Source: Citrus sinensis | Taxonomy: Eukaryota; Streptophyta; Magnoliopsida; Sapindales; Rutaceae | Length of the DNA stretch: 64,000 nt | Direction of reading: 5' to 3' | Assembly: GCF_022201045.2 (NCBI RefSeq) | Contig: NC_068558.1 | Span: 50,013,501-50,077,500, forward strand | In this document: one piece after another, positions 404 through 64,000 of the stretch | Numbering within the stretch: the first letter of the stretch is position 1 | Layout of the letters: every line of letters begins with the position of its first letter | The notes under the pieces: generated by a model | The model's database searches: none | What the model was told of the DNA's origin: nothing | The model's input: only the letters and a program-made list of their open reading frames with translations | Program-made: the position numbers and the translations under genes

Positions 404-2422
404 TGCAAAAATGACGAGGAAATTGTAGCTGTTATAGCTCATGAGCTTGGGCACTGGAAACTTAACCATACAATGTACTCATTCATTGCTGTTCAGGTAT
501 GCTAGAGTTTTCTATCAAGGCTGGATTTGAGATCTATACTCATTTGGCTTGGACAAAAGTTCTATTGTACTGTTTGCCTTCAATTAGTATTTTAGAGATT
601 ATTAACTGTTTAAAATGAACTCACATTTCAGGATAGGGGTATAGTTTTTACTCATGTCATAAATTTTGGCACAAAAGTTGGTATCTTTTTCCCTTTTCTT
701 TAGGTTGAAGGTGTTAACTCATCTTCAGAGCTCTAAATTCAGAACAAATCATCAGGGCTTATGAACTGTGAAGCATTTATCGTTCTTATGGAGGCCTTTA
801 TTCTTTTTGTTGCTCATCTCTTAGTTCTGCAGCTTACTGTGTTATGTGCATATATTCTTTTCCTGATTCAATAATTACTGTCCTCATTATAACTGATTAT
901 GTTTTACTTATCAGGGAGAGAATAACTACGTCATAAAATTGACTTTGATAAGGTTCTTTATTCTCACTTTGGCAGGTTCTTACACTCTTACAATTTGGAG
1001 GATATACCCTCGTGAGGAACTCAACAGATCTCTTCCGAAGCTTTGGGTTCGACACACAGCCAGTTCTCATTGGTCTAATCATCTTTCAGGTATTGTTGTC
1101 TACGAATTCTACACATCAGTTTATTCAGGGTTTAGATCTTAAGTATCTTTATGCTTCTCATTTGATATGTGCATTCAGAGGCAGTATGTTGTTAAATTGT
1201 GCTCAAGTTTGATGTGGGCATGCTTAATTTATTAAAATGCTCTGCATTATTGCATAAAATGGTTTATTTTTGTAGCAAGTACGTGGTATTTTGTTAAAAA
1301 TTATGATTTCAGTTGATGCGTATGTCCTTAAAATATTAGGAGGTTGAACTTTGTTCTTTAGAGAGAGAGAGAGAGAAAATGAAAAAAAATTGGAAAACAA
1401 AACAATTATTAGAGTTAGCACTGCAAGTAGCACTTGCATTGCTGGTATAACTTCCTTGTTTTGGGTTACGTCCATATTATTATGGCTCTCTCAACGTGTC
1501 TATATAGGTTTCTGCAGTTAAGAAAATAATAATGTTTTCCCCAGAAGAGCTTTCTAACAATTTTTCTAACCTTGCTTGCAGCATACTGTAATACCAATCC
1601 AACACTTAGTAAGCTTTGGTCTTAATCTTGTGAGCCGATCTTTTGAATTTCAGGTAACTTTTTGAAATGCAGTTTAGTTTGTTGGCTTTACCCCTTCTCT
1701 CTTGCTCTCTCTCCTACTTCTTGATCATTTTTTTTTAAATTTTGATGGGGCATCTTTATTTTACTAGATATATTTTTTCTATGTAGGCTGATGCTTTTGC
1801 TAAGAAGCTTGGTTATGCCTCTGCTCTTCGTGCTGGTCTTGTGAAACTACAGGTGATCAATCAATATCTTCTTCCTACCATGATTAGAAATTGATTTTTT
1901 TTTTCCTTTTACTGTGCCCTGAAACAGAGGAGCACATTCTAACTGCCTGATGTTTAGGAGTTCTGTTGATTTTCTTGTGAAACAGAGTTTTGTTTGATTT
2001 TTTTCCCTCCCTGCCTTGTGGTTGGAGCCCATTTATGTAGACTGATAACATCTCACTGATTTGTTTCATTGGGCATAAGGCGAACATGGGACAATAAAAT
2101 TCCAATTTTTGTTATCGATAAGTCAGTTTGATAATACACTATATGGTTTTAGCCGACACACACTGGTGTTGTAAGGCCTTGTTATATCACAACCTTTTTT
2201 TGTGTATATGGTCAACAGTTCTCTTTAGTTATTAGAACTACAATAAAATGTTACAGAAGATGGGAAATTCTGGGTTTACTGATGGGAACTTTGTTGGTTT
2301 TTCAGGAAGAAAATTTGTCGGCTATGAATACGGATCCTTGGTACTCAGCTTATCACTATTCTCATCCACCACTTGTCGAGCGACTGGCGGCAATTGATGA
2401 ACCTGATAAGAAAGAAAAATGA
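404..2422 (+). CDS. STE24: CAAX prenyl protease 1 (STE24/FACE1), 3' part
   Basis: Zinc metallo-endopeptidase of the ER membrane that removes the -aaX tripeptide from prenylated CaaX proteins (M48 family). Five in-phase exons are visible: 404-496, 976-1089, 1582-1653, 1787-1852 and 2306-2422. Each is an exact number of codons (31, 38, 24, 22 and 38 plus stop), giving the last 153 residues. The family is usually about 424 residues, so the N-terminal two-thirds with most membrane helices lies off the left edge. Exon 1 carries the HELGH zinc motif. Exons 3-4 carry FEFQADAF, whose Glu is the expected third zinc ligand. Exon 2 holds a hydrophobic stretch ([10 protein letters not shown]). The C-terminal [15 protein letters not shown] block is typical of the plant orthologue. 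The gene ends in a Lys/Glu-rich tail. Its neighbour is the kinase at 4533, the same pairing as At4g01320/At4g01330 (recalled). Confidence 0.95.
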
Positions 2423-3719
2423 TTTAGGCAAACAGGGATGGCCATCCTAGTTTTTAGTTCATTTTATTACAGTACACAAAGCTAACTAAAATCATGACAG
2501 AGCGGCAGCTGTAATATTAGTTTCTGTTGAGTTCGTTTGGAGTATACATTTCCTTTACAATCAGGTACAAAAAAAGCACTTGTATCTCAAGTCTCACTTA
2601 AGGGATCTGTTTAATTCAGCTAAAAGAGGAAGTTAAAAGGGAAGGAATTATGAACTTTGTGAATGCATGAGCCCATCATGGTGGTGGGATTTAAAATCTG
2701 TCATCAATCGTGATCGTGTTTCTTTCAGCGAGGGAGATATCCGACCTGGATAACATTTTTTTTTAAAATTTAAAATTAAAAAAAAAATCAATTTCAGGCG
2801 AGACTTATTATTATTAAACGAATAGGATGTCATCTGAGGAAATTGAGCGGGTCCATCGAATTTTTGACTTCACTGACAATATGAATTCCTTCTTCAGAAC
2901 GATAAGAATCGGAATTGTCATTAAAACAATCGAGTTTTCTTCTTTACGTTTCAACACATGAAGACATGTATGGCATGGCATTGGTTTTAAGTCCAATGAA
3001 AAAGAGAGAATGACGAGGAAGGAGAAGAAGAATCTCAAGTTACCAAGAAAAGCTTCAAGAAAGCACAACTGTCGTGGGGACAAGGCATTTATCAAATTCT
3101 GTATACTTCCTTCCATAATGCTGTTTGCGGGGCATTCCAATCAAACTACCTTTTGTTATCTTGTCTTGATTCAATAGAATATATTATCATTTACGATTCT
3201 CAAGTACCACTCGCATTCGCAATTTGCAAATACAGTGGCAATAGTCAATAATCTCATCAACATTCGCAAGATCCAATTGATTGAATAAAAAAATATAATA
3301 ATAATTAAGCAAAGGCCAAACCACCTTGCTTGTTAAGTTAAGCAGCTCTTTCCCAAGTCTCCCCCGTGGATCCCACTCCCCACACATGACATATCCAGTA
3401 TGATTTCAGCGTCACTATTACCACCTGGCAGAACCTCTGGCTTCTGTGATCTGTGGAATTCCAATTGTCACCCTAACGGCGTATGGTGAGTGGCAACGCC
3501 GCTGATTATCCAGACAACGAGATAAAAGAGGAATTAATAGTGTTCTTATTAAACTTAAATCAAAATATACTGAAATTGAAATGGATTCAAATCGAAATAG
3601 GGAATAGAAATTAAAATAAATTATTTATTTTAACCGTATGAATCAAAATCGAAAGGAATTTTATTATCATTAATATATTTATTTTATTTTAAAATTAAAA
3701 TGAATTATCGTAAATTATT

Positions 3720-3955
3720 AAAATGACGTTGTTGATTATTGTTATTATTTATTATAATAATTTTGATTATATTATTATTATTGAAAATTATTATTGTTAA
3801 AAATAATAATAATTATTATTATTACTAAAACTATTATTACTAATATTATTAATTATTAATATTATCATTAATTATTATTAACAACAACAATTAAAAAATA
3901 ATAACAATAGCAATAATAATATAATATAATATAATAATATTTTATTTGAGGACAA
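3720..3955. repeat. Degenerate (AAT/ATT)n microsatellite tract
   Basis: About 235 bp built almost entirely from TTA, ATT, AAT and ATA triplets, with a few interruptions. The run switches strand sense several times, so it can fold into long AT hairpins. It sits midway between STE24 and the kinase gene. Confidence 0.8.
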
Positions 3956-4408
3956 AAGTATAATTATAAATTTAAATAAAGTAAAATGAGAATTTCAAAG
4001 AGCTTGATTCCCTACCTCTCTGATGGAATTAAGTTATTTTCCTTAATTCTAAAAATATATAGATCTTATATATTTCATTTTCATTTCACCTCTATTTTAG
4101 TATATAAATATACGATCAATTATTTTTTTTTAAAGAAAGTTCTGCCGTTACCGTCAAATGGGGAAATGCGGGCGTGGGCCCAAAAACTCCATTACGAAAT
4201 AGAAATCGAAGCACATACTCACTCACAGAGTCACAGTCACGGACAGAACATAGGCGTCCCATTAGCGTATCCAACGGCACTTTTTTAAGTTTTAACATTT
4301 TACAGAACTCCAGCTAGACAGAAGCAGACAGCTCATTTATGCTCGACAACAACCGGAACGAACGAAACTCTCATCCTCTTGGCTCTTGCCTCACCACCAT
4401 CACCATAA

Positions 4409-4492: not shown

Positions 4493-4532
4493 TTCATTTT
4501 CAGTTTCTTCATTTAAATAAACGGGAACAAAT

Positions 4533-6947
4533 ATGTCTATGTACGACGCCGCATTTGTGAACACAGAACTGTCAAAGCGGACATCAATTTTCGGGCTTCG
4601 GCTTTGGGTCGTAATCGGAATCTTACTCGGTTCACTAATCGTTCTCGCTCTCTTTCTGCTGTCTCTCTGCTTAACCTCTCGCCGGAAAAAACACAATCAT
4701 CTTCAACAACAACAACAATCCAAACAAATCCTTAACACGCCGCCAATCTCCAAGGAAATTCAAGAAATCGTGCACCATCCGGCACCTGTTCCGGAGATTC
4801 AAGTCGACATCGGGAAGATCGAGCACCGCGTGGTGTTTTCTGACAGGGCGTCGAGTGGGGAGAGTAGGGGAACGGGGAGTGCGTGTGAGACGGCGTCCTT
4901 TGGGAGCGGGAGCGTGGGGCCCGAAGTTTCGCATCTTGGGTGGGGCCGTTGGTATACGTTGAGAGAACTTGAAGCTGCTACCAGTGGGCTGTGTGAAGAG
5001 AATGTTATTGGTGAAGGTGGTTATGGGATTGTCTATCGTGGGATTTTGAGTGATGGTACTAAAGTTGCTGTCAAAAATTTATTAAATAACAGGTACTATT
5101 ATTATTTTTCCAAAATTGGTTTCTGCTTCTGATCCATGTTTATTTGCATGAAGAAAAAGGAACATATAATTTTATGTTATATTTGGTTGTCAAATTCTTT
5201 TTCTGTGATCGTTCCGGTCTATGCTCAATCCTGTTTTTGTTGTTTGTTAATTTTCTCGTGTCAGTTGCAGAATTTGTGCTGCAAAGTTGCCTACTTTTAC
5301 AAAAATAAAAAGAAAAGATGTTTGCTCATTGTAAACGCCTGAATTGATAACGTAGACTGAAGAACTGTCGCATATTTAGACTATTTGAGTACCGTTGGAC
5401 CTCTTCAATTGATTTGAGCTACATTCACACTATTTATGTTTGCTGACGTTAGATGGATATATTATCAGGGGTCAGGCTGAGAAGGAATTTAAAGTTGAGG
5501 TAGAAGTAATTGGACGTGTTCGACACAAGAATCTAGTTAGATTGCTTGGATACTGTGTTGAGGGTGCATATAGGTACGGATAATTGATTTAATTTATGGC
5601 CCGCCCAGATTTTTGGTTGAGGTTGTGGCTTTTGTTGAATGTTCAGAGATGTAATTTGTTTCTTGGTTTTATTTTGTAGGATGCTTGTGTATGAGTATGT
5701 TGACAATGGCAATTTGGATCAGTGGCTGCATGGGGATGTTGGGGATGTCAGCCCACTAACATGGGATATTAGGATGAACATCATACTGGGAACAGCTAAA
5801 GGGTACCGTAATTTTATGTTCTAAATTTGATTCTTCCCATGTGATTGAATTGCTGCATTCAATCACCATCCGAAGGGGTTTGTTTTCTGAATTTTAATTT
5901 ATTGTAATTCTTACAGATTGGCCTACCTTCATGAGGGTCTTGAACCAAAGGTTGTCCATCGAGATGTAAAATCCAGTAACATACTACTTGATCGCCAATG
6001 GAATGCTAGGGTTTCTGATTTTGGGCTTGCTAAGCTTTTATGTTCAGAGAGGAGTTATGTAACAACCCGTGTGATGGGAACGTTTGGGTATGCTCATTTC
6101 ATTGTTCAAGTCTCGCCTTTGTTTATTCTGTTATATATTCTTCTGTCAGTTAGATACAACTCCAGTACAATATAATGCATTAAGCAGCTTTGATTCTTTA
6201 AAGAACCAACTATAAATCATTTTTTGTTGGTTTTTGCAGTTATGTTGCACCAGAGTATGCATGCACTGGGATGCTGAATGAGAAGAGTGATGTTTATAGT
6301 TTTGGTATACTTATAATGGAGATAATTACTGGGAGAAATCCTGTTGATTATAGTCGACCACAAGGAGAGGTTAGCATTGATATATACATTGTTCTCATTA
6401 TACCCATTTATTATGTTCCTTTTTGTCTCTGGACCAATGTTGAAAATAACCAAATAATTGCAGGTGAATTTGGTTGATTGGTTAAAAACCATGGTTGGGA
6501 GTCGAAAATCTGAGGAGGTAGTTGATCCTAAACTGCCCAAGATGCCTGCTTCTAAAGCACTTAAACGTGTTCTGTTGGTTGCTCTGCGATGTGTGGATCC
6601 TGATGCAACAAAGAGGCCCAAAATGGGGCATGTAATACACATGCTTGAGGCAGATGACTTGTTATTTCGTGATGTATGCACTAATTCTCTTCATGATTTA
6701 TCATGTAACATGGAATAGCAAAAAGAAAGAAAATTCTCTATTAGTGGCTTTATTTCCACGCAATTTGACTAATTTGTGCTTCATTTTGCAGGAACGTCGA
6801 ATCGGAAGAGAACCTTCAAACTCATATGGTGAAGAGAATCGTGATTTTGCAAGAAAAGTAGGTGATAAACAATTGGGTGAAGGCGCTTCGGATACAAGTG
6901 AAGGTGATGGCAGTAGGAACAATCATCGACCAACCATGCGGCGATAG
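4533..6947 (+). CDS. Membrane receptor-like cytoplasmic Ser/Thr kinase (At1g01540/At4g01330 type)
   Basis: Seven exons join in phase: 4533-5092, 5469-5573, 5680-5802, 5917-6087, 6240-6369, 6464-6673 and 6792-6947, giving 484 residues. A short extracytoplasmic N-terminus (about 24 residues, no signal peptide) is followed by a transmembrane helix near residues 25-47 and a basic stop-transfer RRKK. A Gln-rich linker precedes the kinase domain. Catalytic features are all present: the Gly loop GEGGYG, Lys in VAVK, HRD at 277-279 followed by VKSSN, DFG at 297-299, and an APE-type YVAPEY. The HRD arginine makes it an RD kinase, likely regulated by activation-loop phosphorylation. The Ser/Gly-rich C-terminal tail has no known domain. 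Substrate and ligand are unknown. It is next to BPS1 and a MAPK, as in Arabidopsis chromosome 1 (recalled). The start is the first ATG that precedes the membrane helix. Confidence 0.95.
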
Positions 6948-9940
6948 CACCAGCAGAGAATTAGGTGACTAATTATTATCGTCTCCACTTTGGAAAGTTT
7001 GCTTTTCTTATTCTATTAGTTAGATTTCTTCTTGTACCTTAAAATCAAAGATACCTATGATTTGCAAATTCTTTTACATATATATTTTTTTTCTTTTTTC
7101 AGTTTTACATTCCTCAAATTGGGATGCATTTTGTATAATTTAAAGAATTCTTTCAATCATTCTTACAGGAACTGTATAATTAATGCTCGGTATATTTGTT
7201 TGTCAAACAAAAGCTGTTTTAGCAATTTTTCTGTCGTTTTACGAAGAACAAACATAAGTAGTATTGTTCCCCAAAAAAAAAAAAACCCTTTTTATTGAGA
7301 TTTTACCTACCTATTCAGCTTGATTGTATAATCCTTAAATTTTACATCTAGATATCCATTACTTGGCATGCTTCAGTGTTAAGACTTGTTGGCATCACTG
7401 CCAGCCTCTAGAAACAGATGTTAACGGGTGATGGCCCCAAACGCCAGCGACTTTGCTGGAATTTACTTGGTTTACATCCAGCATCAGGACCAACTCCTAA
7501 GTGGGACGGCACTGTGAAATCGACCCGCCAGCCAGCTAATAGAATGAAACATCTACATTTGGATGTAGTTTTGCTTATCCTAATTGGACCGGCTGCCAGC
7601 TGTGCTGCGCGAATCAGATATTGGAACGGGTCTTGCCATGTTTAACGATCACTGTCAAAAGTATTGCCTTTGGCCCAGAGTTTAACTGAAGCAAGCCGGT
7701 TGTTTGTGTTTTGCGTTTGGACCCATCTGTCTCCGTATTCTGTTCTGAAAGCTCGAGTTCCCATTTAGCTATTGGCAGTCTTACCGACTTAACCCCCTGT
7801 CAGCTTTCTTTTGGTACTGCGGTGGGACAGTTATAGTTGTCCTCGTCATAGTACTTTTAAATATTTAGCAAACACGCTCCACTGGTTGATTTTGTCGTTG
7901 GAACACTTACAATGATTTTATTTTATTTTATTTCGAAAATTGTGTCTAAATATCATATTTATCATATACTATGATTTTTTTTTTAAATAGCCTGCATCAT
8001 TTTACCTCAATATCAAATTGGGCCCGATTCCTAACAATAGTAAACCATTCTTCAAAGCTTGCTAATTGCTTCTTGCTTACACTTTTTCATATTTCATCTG
8101 AATTGAGGTTGGGCAATTAAATGTTATAATATTAAACTATTTGGTAAATATTAATTACTATAGTTTGAAAATTAAGTTGATTTGATTTTATACTTATATA
8201 ATAAAAAATTTATTATATTTTTAATAATTTTAATCAAAATTATTATTTAAAAATTATATTTATTACATACTATTAACTTTTATTTTAATTACAGTTTTTG
8301 TCCTACAGCAACTGTAACTTTTAAGTTACAACATCTTAATATTAAATTGGACTTTGATGTATTTTAAATTTGTTTCTTGCCTAACTAGTAGTTATTTGTT
8401 TTTAATTTATTCACAAACTTTCATTAATAATTTTTTGTGCCTTATATGGTAAAAGTTTCCGTTGATCAATATTTTAAAATTAAACCATTTCTAAGTTGAG
8501 CCAGACTATTGGCATCCTTCAAATATCTTTTAAAATTGTTTTCATGTATTTTACGATTTCAACCTTCGTTAAACACTTAAAATAGTTTCTCTTGCTTAAA
8601 ACTCTATATGCAACCACAACCACGCAGATTCTTCTTCTTCTTCTTCTTTTTTTCTTTTTGTTGACAACTTTGACACCATGTATCGTCATCAACATTCTTT
8701 TCTTTTTTACACTATAGCTTAACTACATTCATTTTTAAAATTTTTTAAATTGAGTCGCAGTAATCATGTAAGGGAGGAAGATGATCATAAAAAAGTGATT
8801 TTTTTTTTTTTTTTGTGGGGTAACTTCATGAAGAGCATAAGAAAATTAATAAGTAAAGGCCGTAGGATCAAAGCTAAAAACAAGAAAACACAAACTTTAA
8901 TGTAGTATATTTTTTCATTTGATGTATTAAAATTAGTGTTTTTCTATCTTTTAATTTGTTCTTCCCTTACTAAATAATGATTATTTAGTGAATGGCAATT
9001 TAGTCAATGGTAATTAATTTAAGGATATTTTTCAACTTCTACTGTAATTTAGTACGTAATATTTACATGTTAATTTTTTTCCAAAATTTTTATTGGGGAC
9101 ATGAGTCACATGACCCATGTGCGTCTCCATTAAGTTCCACTTCTGATAATAATAAAAAAAATCATTTAAATGTACCAGTAATGAAGAATCACATAATGGT
9201 ACAAATTAAAATGAAATAATTAATCTAAGTATAAAAAAATTAAGAAATCTATATCCCTAAATCTTTTTTTTCCTCATTGGGATTTTTTTTACCATTTTAT
9301 TTTGATGAGACATTTTGGTCCTAAGAAGTAATTTCCATGAAGGTTATAATTATAAATTTATGAAATGTATTTTAAAAGGATTTTGAAGGGGTGCCAATTA
9401 TCCAGGTATCCAACTCTTCGTATAAACACTGTTATTAAAACCAAAACAGGCCATTGGGCAATTAACCAGACCAAATTTCAGCCCATATGTGGGGCCCACT
9501 TAAAGGCTTCTCTAGAGAGTTCGTAAAGTGCAATCAAACTCAGAAAAGTATGGGGTGTGGCGGGACATCAAGCCCCGTCTGATTTTGTGAACCATCAGTC
9601 ACACGTGGCTCACGCACCATGCTGATGACTTTTCTTCGCACAAGTCACAACGGTTGCTGTTGTCTCGGTCTTTCTACAAAAAGATAACAAGCCGTGTTGG
9701 GCTGAAAGAGCATTGACGAAACGAAACTTACCAAAAAATGCCAAATATTTTGGCTTCAATAAATAAAGAAAATTTAAGAATTTTAAGTAAAAAGTATCCG
9801 TTGTGCTAATCACCATTCGTAGAACTCCACGTGTCCATCTGTCACGAAATTTTCCAGAACCGCAAGTGACTCCATCCCGCGCCCTACACCTTCAATATCA
9901 AAATAAAACAACCCCTCACCTAAAAAAGCGAGGACGCAAT
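6948..9940. other. Spacer between the kinase gene and BPS1
   Basis: The first few hundred bases are the kinase 3' UTR. A moderately GC-richer patch at about 7380-7800 has open frames but no recognisable domain. It is followed by AT-rich DNA with a TTC run near 8635-8650, an inverted copy of a dispersed MITE (8108-8345) and a T tract near 8802. Close to BPS1, CACGTG cores occur at 9602-9607 and 9828-9833 and may belong to its promoter. No gene is supported. Confidence 0.55.
8108..8345 (-). mobile_element. Dispersed AT-rich MITE, copy A (inverted)
   Basis: The reverse complement of this stretch aligns along its length with the stretches at 30690-30940 and 37615-37875. It shares the ordered blocks AAATAAAAGTTAATAGT, ATAATTTTTAA.TA.TAATTTTGA, ATATAAG/ATTATAAG and AACTTAATTTT. 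It has no coding capacity. Ends are approximate because no clean target duplication was identified. Confidence 0.6.
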
Positions 9941-10960: not shown

Positions 10961-10973
10961 CAAATCCATCAAA

Positions 10974-12029
10974 ATGAGTCGCCCCCAGGATCCACACCGT
11001 CCTTTCTTCCCATTTGGAAATCCTTTTCGGATGATGTCCCCCAAAGGTTCTCGTTTGTCTCCCAAGCTTGTATCTCTGTTGGCTGATTTTGAGGAGACCT
11101 TGGCAGAGAGGCTGAGAAAACTTATGCCGAAAGACAAGGATGATATCCTCAACTTATCATGGATGAGACTGGCAATGGAGTCACTTTGTGAGACTCACAA
11201 TGTCATAAAAGACCTTATAACTGAGTTGGAGCTTCCTGTAAGTGACTGGGATGAGAAATGGATAGACGTGTACTTAGACATCAGTGTAAACTTGCTTGAT
11301 ATATGCATTGCTTTTAGCTCTGTTCTCACGAAGGTCAGCCAAGGCCACCTATTGCTTCAGTGTGTCTTGCACACTTTGGATTCTTCCTCTCCAACACAGT
11401 TTGGGCGAGCCTGTTCTTCTCTTGATAACTGGAGGGAGCACATTAGTTCAAAGAACCCCAGAGTTGAGAGCTGTCGTTCAATCTTAGACAATCTGGTAGC
11501 TTCTTTGGATTTGCCCAAGGTTAAGAACTCAGCCAAAGGGAAGGTTTTGATGCGCGCAATGTATGGGGTTAAGGTGTTGACTGTATTTGTTTGTAGTATT
11601 TTTGCTGCAGCCTTCTCTGGATCAGCCAAGAATTTGTTAGAACTGAACGTTTCTGACACATTACCTTGGGCACCAGCATTTTCTGCCTTGCAAGCTAATG
11701 TGAATGCAGAAGTTAGGAACATATTATCCTCTGGAAGAGCTACAGTTTTGAACGAACTAGAGGCTGTTGATGGGAGCGTTAAGAAATTGTATGAGGTGAT
11801 TCAAAATGAGGTTGACACTGTTGAAGAGGAACTGCTCCAGAAATCTGTTTTGGATTTGGGAAAGAGGGCAGATAACCTTTCTCAAGGGCTAGATCATCTT
11901 ACAAAGGCAGTGGATGGCTTTTTCAAAATAGTTTTGAGTGGGCGTGATGCTTTGCTTTGTAATCTAAGAGCAACTGGTACTGCCCCTGACATACTAGTAG
12001 GGAGGAATGCAGAACCTGTCAGGAGGTGA
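10974..12029 (+). CDS. BPS1: BPS1 (BYPASS1) family protein
   Basis: Single coding exon of 351 residues. It has the hallmark N-terminus of plant BPS proteins (SRPQDP followed by FFPFGNPFRM.SPKGS) and the conserved internal block LELPVSDWDEKW.DVYLDIS. Further family blocks are KNPR.ESCR.IL and the hydrophobic stretch around VKVLTVFVCSIFAAAFSGS, and the C-terminus has VDGFFKI.LSGRD.LL. In Arabidopsis, loss of BPS1 lets roots over-produce a mobile signal that stops shoot growth. The biochemical activity is unknown. The central hydrophobic segment (about residues 200-217) may be membrane-associated, although the family has no proven topology. The start is the only ATG giving the family N-terminus, and it follows a probable leader intron. 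Alternatives such as the BPS2/BPS3 paralogues cannot be separated without a tree. Confidence 0.95.
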   Translation: MSRPQDPHRPFFPFGNPFRMMSPKGSRLSPKLVSLLADFEETLAERLRKLMPKDKDDILNLSWMRLAMESLCETHNVIKDLITELELPVSDWDEKWIDVYLDISVNLLDICIAFSSVLTKVSQGHLLLQCVLHTLDSSSPTQFGRACSSLDNWREHISSKNPRVESCRSILDNLVASLDLPKVKNSAKGKVLMRAMYGVKVLTVFVCSIFAAAFSGSAKNLLELNVSDTLPWAPAFSALQANVNAEVRNILSSGRATVLNELEAVDGSVKKLYEVIQNEVDTVEEELLQKSVLDLGKRADNLSQGLDHLTKAVDGFFKIVLSGRDALLCNLRATGTAPDILVGRNAEPVRR

Positions 12030-14529: not shown

Positions 14530-14563
<34 letters not shown>

Positions 14564-14866: not shown

Positions 14867-17940
<3,074 letters not shown>

Positions 17941-21685: not shown

Positions 21686-21752
21686 TGTTGTGATAAGGTA
21701 GGTGATCTTAGAATGCTGTTTTGTGGTGTTGCTGAGACAAATGGGGTGCGTG

Positions 21753-40565: not shown

Positions 40566-40574
40566 TTAAATTAA

Positions 40575-42327: not shown

Positions 42328-42335
42328 GTCTGTTC

Positions 42336-44317: not shown

Positions 44318-47300
44318 ATGGATTCGAAAGTCGTGAACAAATCAACTTCGTCTCATGAAAACATTGGTGCAGTTCGCGCAATCATAAAGCTGCTGCTAAT
44401 GGCAGTGTATTTGGGCACTCTTATGCTTTGGGTCCTGATGCCCACCAACACATACAGGCAAAACTGGTTGCCTCATCTGAGAGCCAAATTCGGTTTTACT
44501 ACATATTTTGGAGCACAAGGTTGGTAAATTAAATTATTAACTACAAATTTAAAGAATTTACAGTATGTTACATGTCCATAAGTTACTTCTGCAGGAACAA
44601 CGCTTTTGATTTACACGTTTCCTATTCTCTTCATTGCCGTAACGGGCTGCCTGTACCTTCATCTTGGGAACAAATTGAACGATAATAATGTTCTGGAAAG
44701 GTATATTTATAAAATAAACCCATTTGCTAGTGGTTGCTGTAATCTTGTGGCGTACGTGCGTACTTGTCGATTGTTATTTATTTATTTATTTTTTTGAAAT
44801 GAACTTGGAACCAACAGAAATGGCAAGAAGCATCGCCTGGGCATATGGAAAAAGCCGATGCTGGTGAAAGGCCCACTAGGGATTGTTTCTGGCATTGAGC
44901 TAGCCTTCTTCATGATGTTGATTGCACTGCTAATCTGGAGTCTCTCCAATTACCTCCATAACAGCTTTGCTGATATCACCCCACAATCAGCAGCAGAGGA
45001 AGGAGTGAAAGTGTAAGACCTTAACATTTTCGGCAGCAAGTTTATTTGGAAATTGAGATTGAAATAATATTTTGGTTTTGGGTTCTGTCAGATGGCAAGG
45101 TAAGCTGGAGAGTACGGCGCTGAGGTTCGGCCTTGTTGGAAACATATGTCTTACACTTCTCTTCTTTCCGGTAGCTCGGGGCTCATCGGTGCTTCCACTT
45201 TTTGGCCTAACATCTGAGGCCAGCATCAAGTATCATATCTGGCTGGGCCACATGGTCATGACCCTCTTCACTGCCCACGGCGTTTGTTACATCATCTTTT
45301 GGGCAGTTACAAACAACATCTCGGAGGTAATAATTTTGGATACCTTTTTCTTTTTCTTTTCTCTTCTCTTTTGCTTGTTAATCTTGAATATTAATTTTTG
45401 TAGATATTGTTTTCCATTTCTGGTTGGTGTTTCTCCTTTACAAGGAACTGGCACTAGCTACGTACTCTTTTCGTTTTTGCTAAAAAGAGTAAAAAAAAAC
45501 AACCAAATAAAAGATGAAGCTACTGAATTTGAAACGAGTCTATTCTCATAGATGCATCAGCATCACCCGATATTAGAACTTAAATTAGGAGATAAATAAC
45601 CCTAATATTAATTTCCCAAAAAAAAAAACTGGTATTTGTTAATCTTATGATGATGATGATGATGTAGGATTGTTTAGATGGTCAACCTGATGTGAATGAT
45701 CTCGAAGAGCGTGTCCAGAATGAACGGTTGGATTCGTTCGATTATGGACAACCTTCCCATATATGTCATTAAAGGGACCCACGAGTGGACTTAGATAGCT
45801 CTCTCGCCGTCTTTTTCTTTTCGTAATCGTAGCAGTATAGTTTCGCTTGTTTGGGAAACGTCAAATTTGCTTACGTCATTGCAGTTGTGTCATTTTCTCT
45901 CTTAAAAATGTTATTTGCCCTCAACAGTTACGAATAAAATTATGGATGACAAGTAGAATAAGAATATTTATGTATAAAAAATAAAATCAATAAAATAAAC
46001 AAATGAAATATTTATTATCTTTAGTTACCATGTACAGTTTTATGCATACAGCCATATGCAAGTAGTATCACTCTTTCTCTCTTCTTTTAACGCTTGTATT
46101 CCATGCACATAATAATAAATAAGTGCGCTGCGGAGCTGATCACGAACGGTCAGGAGCATTATTTGGGTACTTTGATTTGTAATTTTATTTTGTAGCAGAA
46201 AAGTATTGACTGCTTCTTTTCCGTTTACGCTCCGGTCGGGTTAGGAATCTTAGTTTGTGGGTCCCACGAAAAAGTTAATCTGATACGTGTGGGTTGGGCG
46301 GACCCTCCGTTTGGAAAGTGAATTTGGGCCAAATATTCCACACGATTCTGTTGTCCAGGGCCCGTACGTTAGTCACATCCTTCCTTAGTGCTGGTGATAC
46401 CAACTCCAACTGGCCCACCTATCGAGAAACAAATATCATTCATATTGGCCCAAAAGTCTAAAACGCAAGTGATACTGATGATATGATGCCACGCCACCAA
46501 AAGCGATTCGTGAAAAAAGCTGAAAGCACTGTTAACGAAGGGTCGGAAGTAGGCACTGCAAAGTCCAAACCCCCCCAGTCCCCAGTCCCCAGATAGATAT
46601 ATGCAAATGGAAATTAACAAGTTGCGGGACCCATTTTTGACTTTTGTGAATTTTTTTTGTTACCAACATTGATCCTGTAAAGACGAAAGTAGTAGAATCC
46701 TCGTGCTTTATCGTTGATCGTTGACTTATTGCAGATGTTGCAATGGGCAAAAATCGGAATATCAAACGTGGCCGGAGAGCTGGCATTGCTATCTGGTCTT
46801 GCCATGTGGGCAACAACTTTCCCTCCAATACGCCGCAAGTTTTTTGAGCTCTTCTTTTACACACATTACCTTTACATATTGTTTGTGGTCTTCTTCGTGT
46901 TCCATGTTGGCATCTCTTACTCGTTGATTATGCTTCCTAGTTTCTATCTCTTCGTGGTCGATCGTTACCTAAGATTCTTACAATCACGACGAGCAGTTCG
47001 TTTAGTTTCTGCTCGTATGTTACCTGGCGAAACTGTTGAACTCAACTTCTCCAAAGCTCCAGGTATATTAACTACATATGTAATAGTTCTATATATATCT
47101 TCCTGTTACTTCACTTGATGATTCTTTGGGTTCTTTTTTTTTTTTTTTAATTTTTTAATAATTATTTTACTAGGTTTGAGTTACAATCCGACAAGCATTA
47201 TGTTCATTAATGTGCCGAGCATTTCCAAGCTGCAATGGCATCCTTTTACTGTTACTTCTAGTAGTAATTTGGAACCAGAGAAGTTGAGTGTCGTGATTAA

Positions 47301-48499
47301 AGGTGAAGGAAGTTGGTCCAAGAAGCTTTATCAGGTGCTTTCATCACCTTCTTCAATTGATCGTCTTGACGTCTCTGTCGAGGGACCTTATGGGCCTGTT
47401 TCAACTCATTTTCTCAGGTTTGCATTGTACCTTTTTAGCACTGTTATGTTGGTGTTTTAGAAGTAGTCTAATTTGATGTTATTAATAATATTGGTACTGA
47501 GAGCAATGGTGATTTTTGAAGGCATGATACTCTTGTGATGGTGAGCGGAGGCAGTGGCATTACTCCTTTTATCTCTGTAATTCGAGAGCTTATGTATGCA
47601 AGCACAGTAACAAAATGTAAGACTCCACAAGTAATCCTGATTTGCTCATTCAAAAACTCTTCGGACCTCACCATGTTAGACCTTTTGCTTCCGATTTCTG
47701 GCACCCCTACGGAGCTTCCCAACTTGAAGCTACAAATTGAGGCTTATGTAACAAGAGAGAAACAACCAACAACAGACAACTCGAAACTCATTCGAGCCTT
47801 ATGGTTCAAGCCCCTCGCAACTGATGCACCCATATCATCCGTCTTGGGACCAAACCGCTGGCTATGGCTTGGTGCAATAATCTCATCATCATTCATCATT
47901 TTCCTCATATTAATTGGGATTGTTGGCAGCTACTACATCTATCCTATTGATCACAATTCCAATCAAATTTTCTCGTTCACTTTAAGAGCATTCTTGAATA
48001 TGTTAGTTCTATGTGTGTCGATAGCTGCAACGGCCAGTGCAGCTGTGCTTTGGAACAAGAAACAGAATGCCAAGGAAGCAACGCAGATACAACACATGGA
48101 AGGTTCAACGCCAGCTGGATCACCAAACTCTTGGTTTTATAATGCTGATAGAGAATTGGAAAGTCTTCCACGTCAGTCTCTAATTCAAGCTACCATTGTG
48201 CACTATGGAAAAAGACCTGAGCTAAAGAGTAAGTTTCCTTGTCGCCATGTGTTTTACCTCGATCGGCTTTAAAATTGTTTTAGCCCTTGACTTCTGCTCT
48301 GCTTGCTTAACTCGATAGGTCATTTTATATTTTCTCGCTTGTATATATGGTGGGTGCAGGGATGCTATTTGAGTGTAAAGAATCAAGCGTTGGAGTTCTC
48401 GTTTCCGGTCCGAAGAGGATGAGACATGAAGTTGCAACAATCTGTTCATCTGGTCTGGCAGCTAATCTGCACTTCGAATCTATCAGCTTTAGCTGGTGA
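44318..48499 (+). CDS. FRO2: Ferric-chelate reductase (FRO1/FRO2 type)
   Basis: Eight exons join in phase: 44318-44519, 44595-44700, 44818-45012, 45092-45326, 46735-47062, 47174-47417, 47522-48228 and 48360-48499, giving 718 residues (Arabidopsis FRO2 is about 725). This plasma-membrane flavocytochrome moves electrons from cytosolic NADPH through FAD and two haems to extracellular Fe(III) chelates, the reduction step of strategy-I iron uptake. Haem-ligand histidines are in HIWLGHMV, the following HGVCYII and HYLYILFVVFFVFHVG. The FAD site HPFT is at about 378-381. The NADPH region has VEGPYGP and GGSGITPF near 446-453. The C-terminal FESISFSW is intact. Intron 4 is unusually long (1,408 bp). 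FRO1/FRO2 neighbour a DUF604 gene in Arabidopsis (recalled), as here. Which FRO paralogue it is needs a tree. Confidence 0.95.
45327..46734 (+). other. Long intron 4 of the FRO gene
   Basis: A 1,408-bp intron, bounded by GAG|GTAATA and TTGCAG|ATG, that splits the membrane domain. It contains (GAT)n at about 45647-45664 and C/A homopolymers near 46569. The other FRO introns are 75-132 bp. No coding or clear TE ends were identified. Confidence 0.7.
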
Positions 48500-50172: not shown

Positions 50173-53100
50173 TCATCTCTTTGCAGAATCCACAACAGAT
50201 GAAAGCTTTTCGTCCAAGGCTTCAAGCAGATCATGGTATTCAGCAAATGCAGGGTAAGACTGAATAAGCAAAACAAGAGCATGGTAAATTTTGCACAATA
50301 TAATAGCCAATTTGAATGTCATCTTGAGCACTGATCTAAAAGATTAAAAGAATACCTGTAAGGTGATGGCATATGCTTCCCATAATCGCATATCATGCCG
50401 GAAAAGATCAAAGAGTACCTGCGTAGAGCCACAAGGAAAATCTTAATTTGCAAGTATACTTATTCTGATGCACACTGACAAAATAAATCAGGTAACAGCT
50501 TCAGGGGAATTGAAGTGATTACGCTAGTGCCGACCTATCATGATGCATCTATATAAGATAATAGTTATTTATACTGGCTCAAAATTAACTATTTGTAATG
50601 CAATCATCTTTGGATGCCTGAAGAATGATCGTACACTAATTAAGTTTTAGTACTTTTTGAGTTTCCAAGCTTTATCGCCATAATCTCATTTAAAATAAAC
50701 AACCAGCAAAAGATGCTAGCAAATTCAATGAGTTATAGTTATCACTACTGAGATGATATAAAGAAAAAAAGCAGCTTGAAATGAGATGGCCAAGCAAAAC
50801 TCGTCAGAAAAATCTCAGTGAAATTTTCTCTTAAAAGCATCTCGTTACGCTTACATTTTATAATTTTCCTTTCCACAGTGAACTAAGTTCCACCTGAAGC
50901 ATCAGATGCAATGATAATACATATATTTTTACAGGAGTTCAGATCCTCAATTGTGACTCAATAATTTTGAGATTCTCATAAGTTCCAAACTACTGCAAGG
51001 TAAAACGAATAAAGCAAAAGCAATAACAGGGTGGCATTATACCTCAGATCGTCTCAAAAGAGTTGCCAGAACCACTATCCACTCTTTGAATTTTACAGAG
51101 CACATATGAGCCAGAAGGAATTCTGCATCCAACCGGCTCTGCAGTGTGCCCATTTGAAGCTAGAATATTATAAAAGATGATTCAGTCAATAAAGAAATGC
51201 CAAGATAAATATAATTCAACAATTCCTCATGGCATATAATAGTAATGAAATTACAGAGAGCTGAACAATTCAAAAGTGAGATATCTCATCAGTGTCTAGT
51301 TGATCACTTTTGAAAGAAAAATTAATGTTAATGCTATAACTCCATAGAAATCCAGTTAAGAGTAAAAAGGAAGTTATAAAATATCTAACCATCTTGACTC
51401 AATTACATTTTAAAATCTTTTGCAAACAAAATATTTACAGCATCAGCTTTGAAAGGAAAAAATAGAAAAACAATCCAAGAGGAAAACGTCACATTTTGAC
51501 ATATATATGCTACAGGGAGACTGATAAGGTGAGCTGTGAAAAATTGACAGATATTGATACCTTTTGCCCAATTAGTTCAAGTCCTGAAGCAAAATTCTCC
51601 AAGCGAGCACAAACACGTCCTTCACGTTGAAGATATTCCTGTAGTAAATGTTAGCAAACTAATAAGATCACTTTAAAATATCACATAACCGAAACAAAGG
51701 CTCTAAAAACTTTTCTCACCACTAAATCAAACTGAGTGCCTTTTACAAATGCAACAAGCTTGGAAAGTTCTTTTCCTGACATCAAATAGCTAGCATGACT
51801 TTCTAAGATGTTCTTAACAGAAGCAACATTTGGACTCTGCTCCTTGAACGAGGTGCTGCCCAAAGAAGAAAAGCCTAGTAAATATGATTAGTAATGTCAA
51901 GATGGTCGGTTCAGATACATGCAAAACTGCTCATAGGAATGCACATCAACCTTTTATCCAAAGATGGCCTCCTATAACTAGAAGGAAAAAGAAAATAGCC
52001 CAAAAATCTGGGAGATAGTTTGTCAGAATCAGTAGATGCTTGTTCATATTCCCTTCCAGATCTTAGTAAGAATCTCACCTAAGGGGAGAGAGAGGGGAGA
52101 GAGAGAGAGAGAGAGGGAAAAAAAAAAAAAAAGGTCATTCCTGTGCAACATTTAGGTATCATTTTTCCAATTAAGAGAGTCTATGATCATGTTAAAACTG
52201 ATACCAGCTCCCCAGCGAGTTCATATAAACATTCGTCAAGAGTTGCCTGCATATGGTTGACAATCATTGTTAAGGATAACCACAAAGAAAATGAAAAACA
52301 AAGAGAAAATAAAGTTTGAAATGCAGAAGACCACGCCTACCTGTAATAAACGTAAGGCACTATATTGACTGACAGCAGGACCTTCAAGTTTAGCGATCAC
52401 CTGTGACATTGATACAAGCAATGAAAACCTAACTACCTATTGGCCCGGCTAATCAGCTAGTTTAAAACTTATTTCATCATTGCCAATCCTTGATACAAAA
52501 CGGGGATGTAATTCCTATTTCCTACTTGGTCATAAGTCTCCTCATGACCTTTAACCCATCATGAAAATGGTGTAAAGGTTTTAACCAGAATATGCAATCA
52601 TTCGGTTTTGTATCAGATGCCAAATTAAGGTGTGCCCATATGTTATACAAACTGAACAATTTACAAACTGGACATGCAATCATTCACTGTTGTATCAGAT
52701 CCCAAATTTAAAGTGTGCCCATGTGATGTGGACATAAGATTGATTGCCGGACAAAAGGAAACATAATCACACTGAAGAACAGTATTCAATGGTCCATTTT
52801 GGAAAATTGAGATTAAATAAAGCTTATTATAGGAGAAAAATTGTACAGGACCAAGAAGGCAAGAAATTCCTATAGTTAGGGAGGCCTAACATAATTGAAC
52901 AAGCAGGCTGTAATTCTTCCTTGGCAAAGAGAGAGAGACTGTAGATCTTACAAGAATATAGCAAGCGGCAGTGCGGTACCATCTTCTCTGGAAGCATTCC
53001 TCAAACAACCTATTAAAAATACACAATATGCAGTCATTTTAGTAATTTTTTTCCATTAAGCAGTACGGTAGCAGATTCAGCATTACAAGAAAATTACAAT

Positions 53101-56100
53101 CAATCTTTCATCAAAAACACATCTGCCAATGTTCACAAAGACCTCGGACAACCAAATTGGAAGAGAACAAGGAAAAAGGCCACCCAAATTCTCTAAGAAA
53201 GCCAACACCAATATAAGTTTCAGCAATATCCACAAAGTCTCAATCCAGCACTATGGTAGAGAACAGAAAGAAAGGAACACTAAAAAATTGTCCAAAAAAC
53301 CAAAACTCCAATAAGAAAAAACTCCATATTCACAGGTCATCAAGATGAGCATAGAAGAATAGGGAAGAGATCAACAGCCTTTTGCAAGAAGGAATCTTTT
53401 TCAGAAGACTTGTCTCCCTCGTTTCTTTAATATTCAGTTACATAATTACCTCCATGTCTGATCAAGAATTATGCAAATATCATACAAATGTAAAATAAAA
53501 TAGAACACTTTTTTATCCACCCTTCAAAAATGAGGAAGAAAATAAATAAGTAAATGTAAGTAAAAGGTATACTCTGTTGATCTTCCAGCAGCAGAGAACA
53601 AGTCTGCCCAATGTCGACCATCAGTTTTTCTTGCAACACTCACCACCACATTAAGATACTCAGGAAAATTTCTGATGAAATTACAAGTCTTCTCCAAAAG
53701 AGAGAAGCTGGCAGCACGTTTAGGTATTGAGATCTGGTTCTTGTTTATATTTTGCCTGCAACAAAGTTTGCATCTTAAAAATAAACTTTTAACACAAAAA
53801 ACACATGAATTTAAGATCTGATTCTAGCTTTGGGAACACAAATAGATGCCAGAACAGTGTAACCAAAAAATCCCCCCCCAAGAAAATACATACAACCACA
53901 ACAAATAACTAAAATAAACTATATTTCACAAGTTCAGCAATTGCTTAAGAGTGCATTCCTTGAAGTACGGTGGGGTTTGTGCAAAGTTAAATAACTGAGA
54001 ATCAGAAAAACCATGTCAATATCGATCAATGATTACATTTGGGGTTTCTCATCATACACATACCGTGAAATTTCAGCATCAAATACAGTAAAAAGAAGCC
54101 ACTCAAGACAATGTGAAAAGTGAGGCTTTTCTGCAGACAATTGAGCCAACCGCAATGCCTCCTCAATTTTGTCCCTCTGACAGGCAAAAATAGAAATAGA
54201 TCCAGAATGAATATCGTGAATCTAATACAGAACATCATACATAGGCAATCAACTAGTAAACTGAATTGAATTTTGTAATCAGCAGGGCCAGCATTTCGAC
54301 AGGAGCCATTAGGCAAACTAATAAATAAGAACCAAAGAAAGTACATACATGCTCAGAAGGACCTAGCAGTCCGCTCAAAACTAATTCTCCAGTTTTCTAA
54401 TACATAACAGAAAGCAATTTGGCTTAAGTGCTCTATTTGTATAAGTTAATCAAAGAACTATCCATTCCCATATAACACCAGCCAGTACAATATCATTGTT
54501 CCATGAGCAGGACATGAGCATGATTTTATTCTTATTTTGGATTCATAATTATACAGCCTCAATGGTTGACGGCAATTGATGACAAATAAGTTAAATTCCC
54601 AACAGGTACAAGCAGTGGATATTTCTCCTGACAATATAAAACCAACTGCCATGATAAGTTCAACAGGTCAAAAATGCTGGCCCTGCTGATTAACTACCTA
54701 GTAACCGATTGCGTAGTCAATCAATTTTTACCATTATTGGTAATTTGGGCTGTAGCTTTCCATTCAAGCATACAAGGTCGATGTGAATAAGACTTCAATT
54801 CCGTCCAACAAGGTCATTAACTTTCCTATACTAGATTTAAAAAATAAAAATTCATACTGATACCTGAAGGAGATGCCGAAGAAGGCAATGCAATATAGTT
54901 TGAGCTTGTGGAGTTGGTTCAAAACATGGAAACTCTGTGCATGCAGAAAATGACATTCTTTGAGAAACACCGACAACAACACCTGCATTTGGAAGAAGCC
55001 CCAGAGGGTACACTTCACGGTCGAATTCCAACTCCGGGTCCAACTAGAAGATAAACATTCAGTGAGTTAACCAATTGGGTATATGGACTATATGGATTGC
55101 CAACCAGATCAGAATATCTCAAGTTTAACATAATTACTTTTCATAGATTCACTTCCAAAATCTTCTGAAATTTCAATAGCTAAAGCAAATACATATAATA
55201 TTTAACTGATAATAAAAAAGATTCAACCAGGAAAGGAAATAATGTCTTCATTAACAGAGAAGATGGAAAATCATTCTAGTTATATTAAAGAAAAACCAGA
55301 ACGTTAAAAAGAGAAGAATAATGGAAAATAAACCCTAGTAACAACTCTTAATGTTAAACTATATATAGCAAGGACCATTTCCTTCTTTTATTTCAACTGA
55401 CAGAATCTTGAATGAAAAATGCACAACTACACAAATGAAAAGTCATCATATGCTATGATGAAAAGAATCATTTGGCTGGAGGATAAAAAAAAAACAGATG
55501 TAAATGGTGCATACCTGCAAGAAATCCTCTTGCTTATAAGGGTCAACACCAGGAGATGGATACCAAACCTGTAAACATAAGCTTCCAGCAAGATTCTATA
55601 TCAGACGGATAAACATGACGGAAAACAGAGTTGAATTTTTATAAACCCTAGACATGAGGAAATTGATAGAACTTAGTAGTTGGTTACCTGCATTCCTCGG
55701 TATCCGTAATCCAACCATGAAACTTCTTCAATTAGACTCGTTTTCTCCTCTAATTGACCACAAGTAACCCAAAATAATTCAACAGAATCGGTAAGCTCTC
55801 TTTCTCGTCCATCATCCAAATCCAAAAGTGAAAGCTCCCCATTTGCTCTCAATATCAAACATCTAGCAAATAGACGTATCGATTCAGAGGCATATAGAGC
55901 ACAAAAACTTCTAATCATCATTTCATAGATCCATACCTCGCAGGCTCCCTTGCTAACATGTCAGAAGAAGTTGAAACATGATTGTTTAAAGAACATTCTC
56001 TTGGAACCTGATCGGGGATAAAACGCATAGCAGCGGGATGGCTCTTTGCAGTCATGATTGAAAGTTCTCGTACTGTAGAAAGCTGTTTGTCATGTTATCA

Positions 56101-59100
56101 CTTAAAAATGAATGAAGAATAAAGTTCCATTAAAGCAGTCTCATCCAGAGTACAATTTTTAACTTTACAAACACAAATCTACCAGGAAAATAGTATCATT
56201 CGACAATTCTAACCAAATTTTCATCAAAGCACATCTGAAACATTCCTTTACCTGAAGGTCTGGAGTGGTAGAAGGTGTCAATTCACCAAATAATTTCACA
56301 TGGAATATGTGGACATCAAATGGGCGATAGGTCACAAGAATATAATCTTCATAGACATCCATCACTATTGGTTTAGCAAGCAATGATTTCCGACATAGCA
56401 ACGAGCTCTGATCAAGGTGATATCTTGGGTAAAAGAGCAGTTCATACCTGCAATGAGTCAATACTTCAGCAAAATTTCCATCCTTTCCAACCAAATAATA
56501 AGAATAATGAAAAAAGATTGCTCCACTCAAACAGAATAGAATCCACACTGTTAACACCTGTGGACAACCAAGGCCTAGATCCTGATTGATGTGTAAAGGG
56601 AAAATGCCTTGGCAGCTAGCAAGGTCGGCAGCAAGGCTCAACCAAACATTTTGACTATTATGCAAAGTCTAAAAGAATACTTCAAATAGCTGAAGGATGA
56701 AAAGACAACTTCAAAGAATCCACAATAGAATACATTAAAAAAAAAAATCTCACGTGTTAGAAGAATCGATATAGTTGCAGACAACAATGATCTTCCCCAG
56801 CCACAACAAACCTTTACTCTGAATCTTCTGTTCCTGAGTAATATCTCCAAATACTCGCCATTTTTTTTGCCGTATATCATATAAGATTAACCCATGAAGA
56901 CCAGCAACTGCCAAGAACATTCCGTCCTTGCTTGCAGCCACATGCTGGACAGGCCAATTTTGGGAGATATAAGAAACCTGGGCAAAAAACAAGATTGTAT
57001 CAGGGATACAAATATTATATCAAGTGAAAACCAATTGTAGAGATTGAAGTTTCGTGAATAACTGGAAGGTTTAGGTGTAGAATTTTGAGTTCGTCAGTAT
57101 CTTCCGATTGCACAACTAGTAACCTATCTTCACCATAAATTACTTGACGAGCATATGTCATGCCAGAAACCCCTCTGTTAAGACAACATTTGCCAAAGGA
57201 AAATATAAGAACTCGTTCTGAAGATCCTTCCTCAATTGCATATAGCCTATATCCATATTCATCCCATTGCATCATTGAGGTGCCACTCATCAATGGCTCA
57301 TATTTACAGTCTTGGTTTGGCTTAACAATGGGAGAGGATATAGAACTTAAACTGATTTGACGGATCGTTGACATCAGACGACATCCGGACACGGACCAAA
57401 CTGTAAGTCCTCTTGACTTCCAACCAACAGCAAAAGCAGAATTATCAGGTGTCCAAGCAATACAACTAACAGGACCAGTGTCATCCATGGAGTATCTGCA
57501 AAATGTATAATAAACTTCTCTCATTCTTCATGAGATAAAGCCTGATGTAATGTCAAGCAGAGGACATTTGAACAGCAGGATAATGAACCAAATGACAAAC
57601 AAAAGTACATTCACATAGACATTTACGGGCTTACCCCCAGTCATATAAAGACACAGTACGAATAAGTGATGCTGATTCTGCCAAGTCATAGAGCTCAACA
57701 ACCCCTCTCCTTGTACCTACAGCAAGGATTTGTTGCTCTGGAGCTATTGAAGCACACACAGCATCACCAGAACCCAACTCTTTATCAATTTTAATGAATT
57801 CAGCTAGCTTTAAGCCTTTCTTGCTCACAGAGCATGACATTAGTTGTCCATTAGAATACAAAACAAATAGCAACCTCATAGGTAGGCAAAGCTCCAGCCA
57901 AATGATAGCAGAGCTTATGGGAAATTTATGATCAGACACAAAAGCTCCCGAAGTGTCGACAGAAGCAAGACCGTTGCTCGGAAAATGGTGGGACAAAGCA
58001 GCCACACTGCTATCATTAGAAGAGTGGACAAGTTCAAAAGCTCCATAAAACTGTAGGAAAAAAAAAACAGTATAAAGTTAAATTGGAAAATAATTTTACC
58101 ACGTAGTATGATCCCAAAGGAGTAATGACCCAACACCCTAAAGCAGAAAGATTAATGACACCGTAACTTCTGAACAGCTAACGCCAATCATATTCAGATT
58201 ACCTCCCCCTTCCATGAGATACTATATAAAGATCCATCTGAAAGCCCAAGTAGCATGTGTTTGTTATCACTGACAATATTGCTCCTGACGAAGTCACGCA
58301 ACAGGACTAGCAAGATCAGATTTGAGAACAAATACGTACAATTATCATACTAGTGCCATAAAGGGTAAACATACATCAGCTCAATCAACCTAAACCAACA
58401 AAAGAAGCATAAAGTAAACTAAACCAGATTTTATATATGCAATTGTCGACATTTCTCAACAATATAGATGCAGAATAAATTTCAAGTAGCATCTTGTGTC
58501 CTAAATGTAACAATTATGAGCCCTTGACATGATTATATTCATACAGGTATTCATGCTGTGACTTCCCAATACGTACAAATAATGAACACCAGAAACAACG
58601 CCCATCCACATAAATGTATACCCATTAAATTAAATGGACATTTTTTTTCCAATGGACATACCTAACATAGATTATATAATGAGTGGTTCCTCAAAACCAA
58701 TAGAATCTGAATATTTATACATTTGAATCAACTCCTGTTAACGTCCAAATACAGAATTCAAACTCCCATTAAAGTCTAGATTCTTGAAACTCAAGACAAC
58801 AGAGAATACGAACTAATCACAAATAGAGCAAGAAGGAGAACAGAAAGATAAAGAAAGAGGTTAGCTCAAGAACTTACACTGACAAACCCTTTTCCGCAAA
58901 AGGCAACTGCTCATTCAGAACAAGAGAGATCTTAATGAAAAACAAACCAGAAGGCTGCTTTCCTCCGATTTGTATACTTTTTTCTGTAATCTGGACCTTG
59001 AAAATATGAAGATATAAAGACGATGTCTGCCAACAAAAAAGAAACACAGTTAATCACTAAAGTGGCACATGTATACATCATTGCCTTGTATCTATACATA

Positions 59101-59721
59101 AAAGAAACAAAATCAAGATGACAATTAGGTTGCCAAGATATGGTACATCATCAAAGTCACAAATCATCACATACAAGTAAAAAAGAATAATAATTATATC
59201 CTAAAAGCTATGACCACAAGGATAATAACATCACATAAAGCATTGATTAAAACATACATGTACAGCTGTATAGCAGTTGTAAGAGTAACAGTGAATAGCT
59301 AATCAGTTGAACTGAACTATATATATGACTAAAATTAGTGATGGATTCAAATGAAAACTTACAACAACAGCAATCAATTTGGTGTCGGGGCTCCACACCG
59401 CCTGCAAATTCTCGCCCTCTCTTTGCACTGACTCCGAATCCCTCTTGTATTTCCCTAATCTCACTTTATGCTGTAAATAATCCACAATTCCCAATTCAGA
59501 AAAAAAAAAACACTGCACAGAACCAAAACCCTAAAATTGTTAAAAATTTGTAAACATAAATGCTAAAGAAATACCTGAGAAGAGCTCCAGAGCTCGATGT
59601 GACAAGGAGACGCAATAAGTAACAATCCATTGTTAACTTTGAAGTATATGATCTGCTGAGACGATGGACAGAGTCCTTGCTCCAGTGGAATCACCTGCGG
59701 CCATCCGTATGCCATATACAT
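50173..59721 (-). CDS. RIC1: RIC1-like Rab6-GEF subunit (WD40 plus RIC1 domain)
   Basis: 23 exons on the minus strand join in phase to 1,124 residues. From the 5' end they are 59721-59575, 59470-59363, 59026-58878, 58284-58203, 58050-57635, 57495-57063, 56977-56754, 56447-56252, 56082-55937, 55862-55688, 55568-55515, 55043-54864, 54176-54064, 53755-53573, 53009-52952, 52400-52341, 52246-52205, 52078-51951, 51855-51720, 51638-51561, 51159-51043, 50418-50356 and 50259-50173. The N-terminal half has WD-like repeats (e.g. GPVSCIAWTPDNSAFAVGW). The C-terminal half is the helical RIC1 domain (LEWLLFTVFDAE, CNFIRNFPEYLNVVVSVARK, RLDAEFLLAHMCSVKFKEW). In yeast and animals RIC1 pairs with RGP1 to activate Rab6 for retrograde traffic to the Golgi; that role is inferred here. 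The start ATG opens MYMAYGWPQVIPLEQG. Confidence 0.93.
52081..52132. repeat. (GA)n followed by A tract in a RIC1 intron
   Basis: A GA-rich microsatellite runs into A15 directly upstream (on the gene strand) of exon 18. Seen on the minus strand it gives a long pyrimidine stretch next to the acceptor at 52079-52080, so it may act as an extended polypyrimidine tract. Confidence 0.6.

Positions 59722-61600: not shown

Positions 61601-61604
<4 letters not shown>

Positions 61605-61633
<29 letters not shown>
61605..61633. repeat. (TG)14 microsatellite
   Basis: A pure TG dinucleotide run, likely polymorphic in length. Confidence 0.9.
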
Positions 61634-61636
<3 letters not shown>

Positions 61637-63337: not shown

Positions 63338-63350
63338 CACGTGACACGTG
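63338..63350 (+). promoter_or_regulatory. Tandem G-boxes upstream of BRH1
   Basis: CACGTG at 63338-63343 and again at 63345-63350, separated by one base, continuing into CGTGTG at 63347-63352. They lie about 540 bp upstream of the BRH1 start. G-boxes bind bZIP and bHLH factors, and CGTGTG fits the brassinosteroid response element bound by BZR1. BRH1 in Arabidopsis is brassinosteroid-repressed, so a role in that response is plausible but inferred. Confidence 0.5.
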
Positions 63351-63892
63351 TGAAAAAAGTATGCAGCTAACCATTTTTTAATGCTGGAACCGAAGGCCAA
63401 ACGCAGCCTTTCCCCATGTCATGAGTGTACTAATCTTTAAAATCTATTGAGACCCAAAAAAATAAAATCATATTACTGTAGCATATAAAATAATAAAATT
63501 ATTTATATTATAATATTGTGATTTTGATTATGGTGTTGTTTTGTAAATGACCAAATATCAGTTTTCATATCAAAATCACCACCACCCACAAAATTAGCGG
63601 TTCTCACCGTCCAATAAAAGGCCCTCCAAGAAAGACTCTCCTCACATCGATTCCTATTGGTCAATCATAAACCCCTACATCACAGCCTGTACCTCTATCA
63701 CCTTCATGGTAAGAGGCAAGATCGGCAAAAGCATTATTAGTCATTTAGAAATAATTGTTATGCAATACCACCAGTAGCCGAAACAGAAGCTTCCGCTCTC
63801 TCTCTCTCAAAACTCTCTTTATAAGGATTTGTAATCCAAGCTCTCCATTTGGGATTTGAGAACAAATTTTTCTCTTTTGCTTTACGTGATCC

Positions 63893-64000
63893 ATGGGTTT
63901 CCCAGTCGGGTACACAGAAGTATTCTTGCCGAAGTTCTTCGTACACACGCTTTCCTTTCTGGGTTTCATCAGGAACATCATTATCTGCTTGTTTCGCTAT
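63893..64000 (+). CDS. BRH1: BRH1-type RING-H2 protein, 5' end only
   Basis: An open frame of 36 codons runs off the right edge. It begins MGFPVGYTEVFLPKFFVHTL and continues with a hydrophobic helix (LGFIRNIIICLFRY). This is the characteristic start of Brassinosteroid-responsive RING-H2 (BRH1), a membrane-anchored E3 ubiquitin ligase whose RING-H2 domain would lie beyond the window. The ATG at 63893 gives the family N-terminus exactly. Related XERICO-type RING genes are less likely, because they do not share the YTEVFLPK start as closely. Confidence 0.85.
   Translation, partial: MGFPVGYTEVFLPKFFVHTLSFLGFIRNIIICLFRY

Follow-up and report, generated by a model that had tools for sequence, protein, structure and literature searches.

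A Citrus sinensis gene block as a probable unduplicated counterpart of four thinned Arabidopsis regions

Why does a single block of the Citrus sinensis genome unite gene families that Arabidopsis carries on several chromosomes? The window, which denotes the whole 64,000-nucleotide stretch of DNA analysed here, contains, in this order, genes for a STE24-like protease, a kinase, a BPS1-like protein, an MPK4-class MAP kinase (MAPK), a GH28 polygalacturonase (PG), a UDP-glycosyltransferase (UGT), a DUF604 protein, a malectin-like protein, a ferric reductase oxidase (FRO) and RIC1. The initial annotation had listed these genes in this sequence with BRH1 as an eleventh member; ten of the 11 families are co-located in the block by domain or sequence match, and BRH1 is represented by a 36-codon open start only. 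The PG and RIC1 genes lie on the minus strand, and the remaining named genes lie on the plus strand. The features are as follows.

404..2419, plus strand: STE24-like CAAX protease (M48), C-terminal part, with the gene cut by the left edge of the window
4533..7629, plus strand: kinase gene (gene model; 3' end uncertain)
10974..12029, plus strand: BPS1-like (BPS1/ROH1-like) gene, single coding exon, 351 aa (open reading frame and Pfam)
14867..17940, plus strand: MPK4-class MAP kinase with a TEY loop, encoded in 6 exons (rebuilt six-exon model; stop from the automatic model)
19435..21561, minus strand: polygalacturonase-like gene, GH28 (model and Pfam; 5' end approximate)
25820..27241, plus strand: UDP-glycosyltransferase, single exon (Pfam and PDB)
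31943..34138, plus strand: DUF604 (Fringe-like) gene, at least 2 exons (Pfam; 3' end approximate)
35652..37064, plus strand: malectin-like protein (PF12819, E 2.4e-29)
44318..48499, plus strand: ferric reductase oxidase (Pfam on a model from 44858)
50179..59715, minus strand: RIC1 (Rab6 GEF partner), many exons (Pfam, codon score and inspection by eye; 3' end approximate)
63893..64000, plus strand: BRH1-like RING-H2 gene, possible start, 36 codons (open ATG frame, cut by the window end)

The genes were identified through Pfam and PDB sequence searches, and some exons were placed by codon score or by eye. The automatic gene model fused adjacent genes and skipped exons, and the fusions were discarded. 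The M48 domain of the STE24-like protease (PF01435, E 3.3e-11) lies at approximately 395-508 on the plus strand, on the exon that encodes HELGHW, and the open reading frame at 2153-2419 was assigned by eye as the last exon. The kinase gene matches PF00069 and PF07714 in two frames, and the BPS1-like gene matches PF05633 (E 1.5e-12) and PF03087 (E 7e-07) on 10947-12026. The PG gene matches PF00295 (E 2.3e-13) on 19438-20145, and the upstream exons that the automatic model placed past 21561 were discarded. The UGT is matched by PF00201 (E 5.9e-15) and by PDB entry 7erx (E 4.5e-93); an NCBIfam scan of three proteins returned weak UGT matches far below the cut-off and nothing else. The DUF604 profile PF04646 is divided between 31943-32803 (profile positions 1-66, E 3.5e-30) and 33443-33958 (positions 67-240, E 9e-63). 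The open reading frame of the malectin-like protein appears by eye to be hydrophobic at both ends, and Pfam matched no kinase family within it. FRO carries four ferric-reductase or oxidoreductase families (PF01794, PF08022, PF08030 and PF00175), and its N-terminal exon at 44318 was added by eye. In minus-strand frames, RIC1 is matched by PF25440 (E 1e-47) and PF07064 (E 3.6e-11); Pfam support reaches down to approximately 53.6 kb, below which the model follows codon score and inspection by eye.

The MAPK gene can be placed more closely within its family. A PDB search with a model one exon short returned 226 distinct sequences with E no higher than 1e-60, and among the best 60 the top sequence is Arabidopsis MPK4 (7w5c, 645 bits), followed by MPK6 (525 bits). 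On sequence, the window MAPK is assigned to the MPK4 group, being nearer to MPK4 than to MPK6 and containing TEY, at a level of score that does not separate MPK4, MPK11 and MPK12. The donor of its third coding exon, at 16334, reads GTTGGC, a poor fit to the usual plant GTAAGT. The grape MPK4 group comprises VvMPK13 (chromosome 15, 18.82 Mb), VvMPK9 (chromosome 2, 0.38 Mb) and VvMPK11 (chromosome 6), which pairs with AtMPK13, and each of these three genes has six exons (PMC4511077). The window gene resembles VvMPK13 and VvMPK9 as an MPK4-group MAPK, and its model likewise has six coding exons.

What lies at the right end of the window? The 36-codon opening at 63893 presumably resembles the start of BRH1. 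The gene may be BRH1, and its RING, if present, would fall beyond base 64000. At 59001-64000, none of the six frames matched a Pfam family when read unspliced, and a regular expression for RING-like Cys/His spacing found no match in six frames of the window. We take LHCA2 (At3g61470) to sit between BRH1 and RIC1 in Arabidopsis. The interval from RIC1 to the BRH1-like start (59716-63892) gave no Pfam match when all six frames were read without splicing, and the window and Arabidopsis orders are thus probably not identical; the gene would have been either gained in Arabidopsis or lost in the window.

Additional genes in the gaps were considered and rejected, given that Pfam, with E values up to 0.001 accepted, matched no family in three frames per strand. 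This result covers 21560-25819 and 27242-31942 on both strands, as well as 37000-44999 on the plus strand and 37065-44850 on the minus strand. On the minus strand, the Pfam scan covered the gap stretches and 49000-64000. On the plus strand, it passed over 14999-21559 and the intervals between the other stretches, gene pieces excepted, and it took in two of the three frames at 4500-6200 and 10941-14998; short exons can escape scans of unspliced frames. Within this subset of frames, Pfam revealed no second copy of the named genes. Rfam at gathering thresholds gave no match in the window, and no tRNA was found there. A Pfam-free stretch contains an inverted repeat at 40566-41011 (123-nt arms, 91% complementary, 200 nt between), perhaps a foldback or MITE-type element, and a 74-nt unit is present in three head-to-tail copies at 42036-42257. 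A dispersed 165-nt repeat (30735-30899 and 37661-37825, 77% identical), part of which (30753-30817) is related in inverted orientation to 8221-8285, is perhaps an old transposable-element fragment.

Where do the corresponding genes lie in Arabidopsis? We take the kinase, DUF604 and FRO genes to fall within At1g01540-01590, with a kinase also within At4g01320-01370, as in the initial annotation. RIC1 and PG are likewise presumed to lie at At3g61480/61490, loci at which a literature search pairing two terms did not meet them. Publications place STE24 at AT4G01320 (PMC4393236), BRH1 at AT3g61460 (PMC6969932), the BPS genes at AT1G01550, AT4G01360 and AT2G46080 (PMC5793164; PMC4112631), and MPK11, MPK4 and MPK12 at At1g01560, At4g01370 and At2g46070, respectively (PMC4511077). 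The loci claimed for STE24, the BPS genes, MPK4, MPK11 and BRH1 are accordingly backed by the sources consulted, and those of the other five genes are presumed. The BPS comparison uses locus numbers instead of the BPS1/2/3 labels, which conflict between sources: At4g01360 is BPS2 and At2g46080 is BPS3 in PMC5793164, and At4g01360 is BPS3 in PMC4112631 and PMC9134115. By locus number, BPS and MAPK genes adjoin in three regions (At1g01550/01560, At4g01360/01370 and At2g46080/46070), and the fourth region, At3g61, holds none of the 20 MPK loci tabulated in PMC4511077. At1g01, At4g01, At2g46 and At3g61 contain the same gene families as the window, with BPS-MAPK neighbors in three of the four regions, whereas the genes are spread over four chromosomes in Arabidopsis and united in one block in the window. 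The earlier count of three Arabidopsis chromosomes overlooked At2g46 and its BPS-MAPK pair and must be raised to four regions.

The NGATHA genes provide an indication of how the four regions are related. According to published loci, each region holds one member: NGA1 (At2g46870), NGA2 (At3g61970), NGA3 (At1g01030) and NGA4 (At4g01500) (PMC9266525). The genes lie outside the gene set of the window, approximately 13 to 80 loci away if numbering proceeds by tens. NGA1 and NGA2, on chromosomes 2 and 3, differ by a Ks of 1.07, and NGA3 and NGA4, on chromosomes 1 and 4, by a Ks of 0.96 (PMC9266525). The four cross pairs have Ks values of 1.74, 1.81, 2.06 and 2.60, which overlap those between NGA and NGA-LIKE genes (approximately 1.94-2.79) and are therefore near saturation, so that the older split is not dated by Ks alone (PMC9266525). 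An arrangement in which two closer pairs share one deeper split is the pattern expected from the alpha doubling after the beta doubling. We take LHY to be At1g01060 and CCA1 to be At2g46830. PMC2887406 traces the LHY/CCA1 pair to beta and states that grape and papaya have apparently undergone no polyploidy since gamma.

We propose, with a probability of roughly 0.87, that the window represents an ordinary eudicot segment, kept in single copy by a lineage without the beta and alpha doublings of Arabidopsis, and that Arabidopsis carries four thinned copies of it. In the Arabidopsis lineage, the same ancestral segment would have been doubled twice, by beta and then by alpha, leaving one copy near an end of each of chromosomes 1, 2, 3 and 4 (At1g01, At2g46, At3g61 and At4g01), and many genes would then have been lost from each copy. 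In the unduplicated order, the genes kept in At3g61 (PG, RIC1 and BRH1) would alternate with those kept in At1g01 and At4g01. The direct basis of this proposal is the window order, the three BPS-MAPK pairs by number and the presence of NGATHA in four regions with two closer pairs. From these, we infer the orthology of the window genes to the named loci, their collinearity and the identity of the older split with beta. The link between the window and Arabidopsis is one of gene families and locus numbers rather than of alignment; two of the three At3g anchors (RIC1 and PG) are at presumed loci, and the third (BRH1) rests on 36 codons.

The idea that one block faces several thinned Arabidopsis copies thus agrees with the gene order, the BPS-MAPK pairs and NGATHA. 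The initial annotation further singled out the way in which the At3g genes alternate with those of the At1g/At4g set. Such interleaving is expected because one unduplicated segment is set against four thinned copies, and it is predicted by alpha and beta, given that the closer NGATHA pairs join At2g46 with At3g61 and At1g01 with At4g01. A block in one piece with interleaved kept genes is what a lineage lacking both doublings would likely have. The term "pre-fractionation state" was an overstatement, since the window displays the order of a single living lineage and includes UGT and malectin-like genes, for which no counterpart is shown in the Arabidopsis blocks.

Could the interleaving instead be a local novelty? 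PG, RIC1 and BRH1 might have been translocated or transposed into the block in the window's own lineage, as the minus-strand orientation of PG and RIC1 against the plus strand of the other genes would allow. This scenario is improbable because it requires separate, scattered insertions that preserved the partly presumed locus order of PG, RIC1 and BRH1, and because the four Arabidopsis regions already resemble duplicates, which predicts interleaving without insertion. An assembly chimera of two unrelated loci can hardly be credited: no sign of one was seen, a single join cannot interleave two sets, the 64000 bases include 0 N, and G+C per 2-kb step varies from 0.265 to 0.406.

The window genes could also be paralogous rather than orthologous to the named Arabidopsis loci, with only a loose likeness of order. 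The kinase, UGT, GH28 and DUF604 families are large and leave room for such a mismatch, but STE24, BPS, RIC1 and FRO belong to small families. The BPS-MAPK pair is, moreover, repeated by locus number in three Arabidopsis regions, and we regard paralogy as very unlikely. That pair, shared by the window and three of the four Arabidopsis regions, raises the separate idea that selection, for example through shared regulation, kept it together while other neighbors were lost, which we consider doubtful.

The single-segment reading makes this gene neighborhood a known and unsurprising consequence of genome doublings, and it adds no new principle. No publication titled on this exact block was found in the literature searched, although one may exist in print. 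The locus offers a small case of how two doublings and gene loss disperse one ancestral neighborhood across four chromosomes, and it could aid ortholog assignment for MPK4, BPS1, FRO and RIC1.
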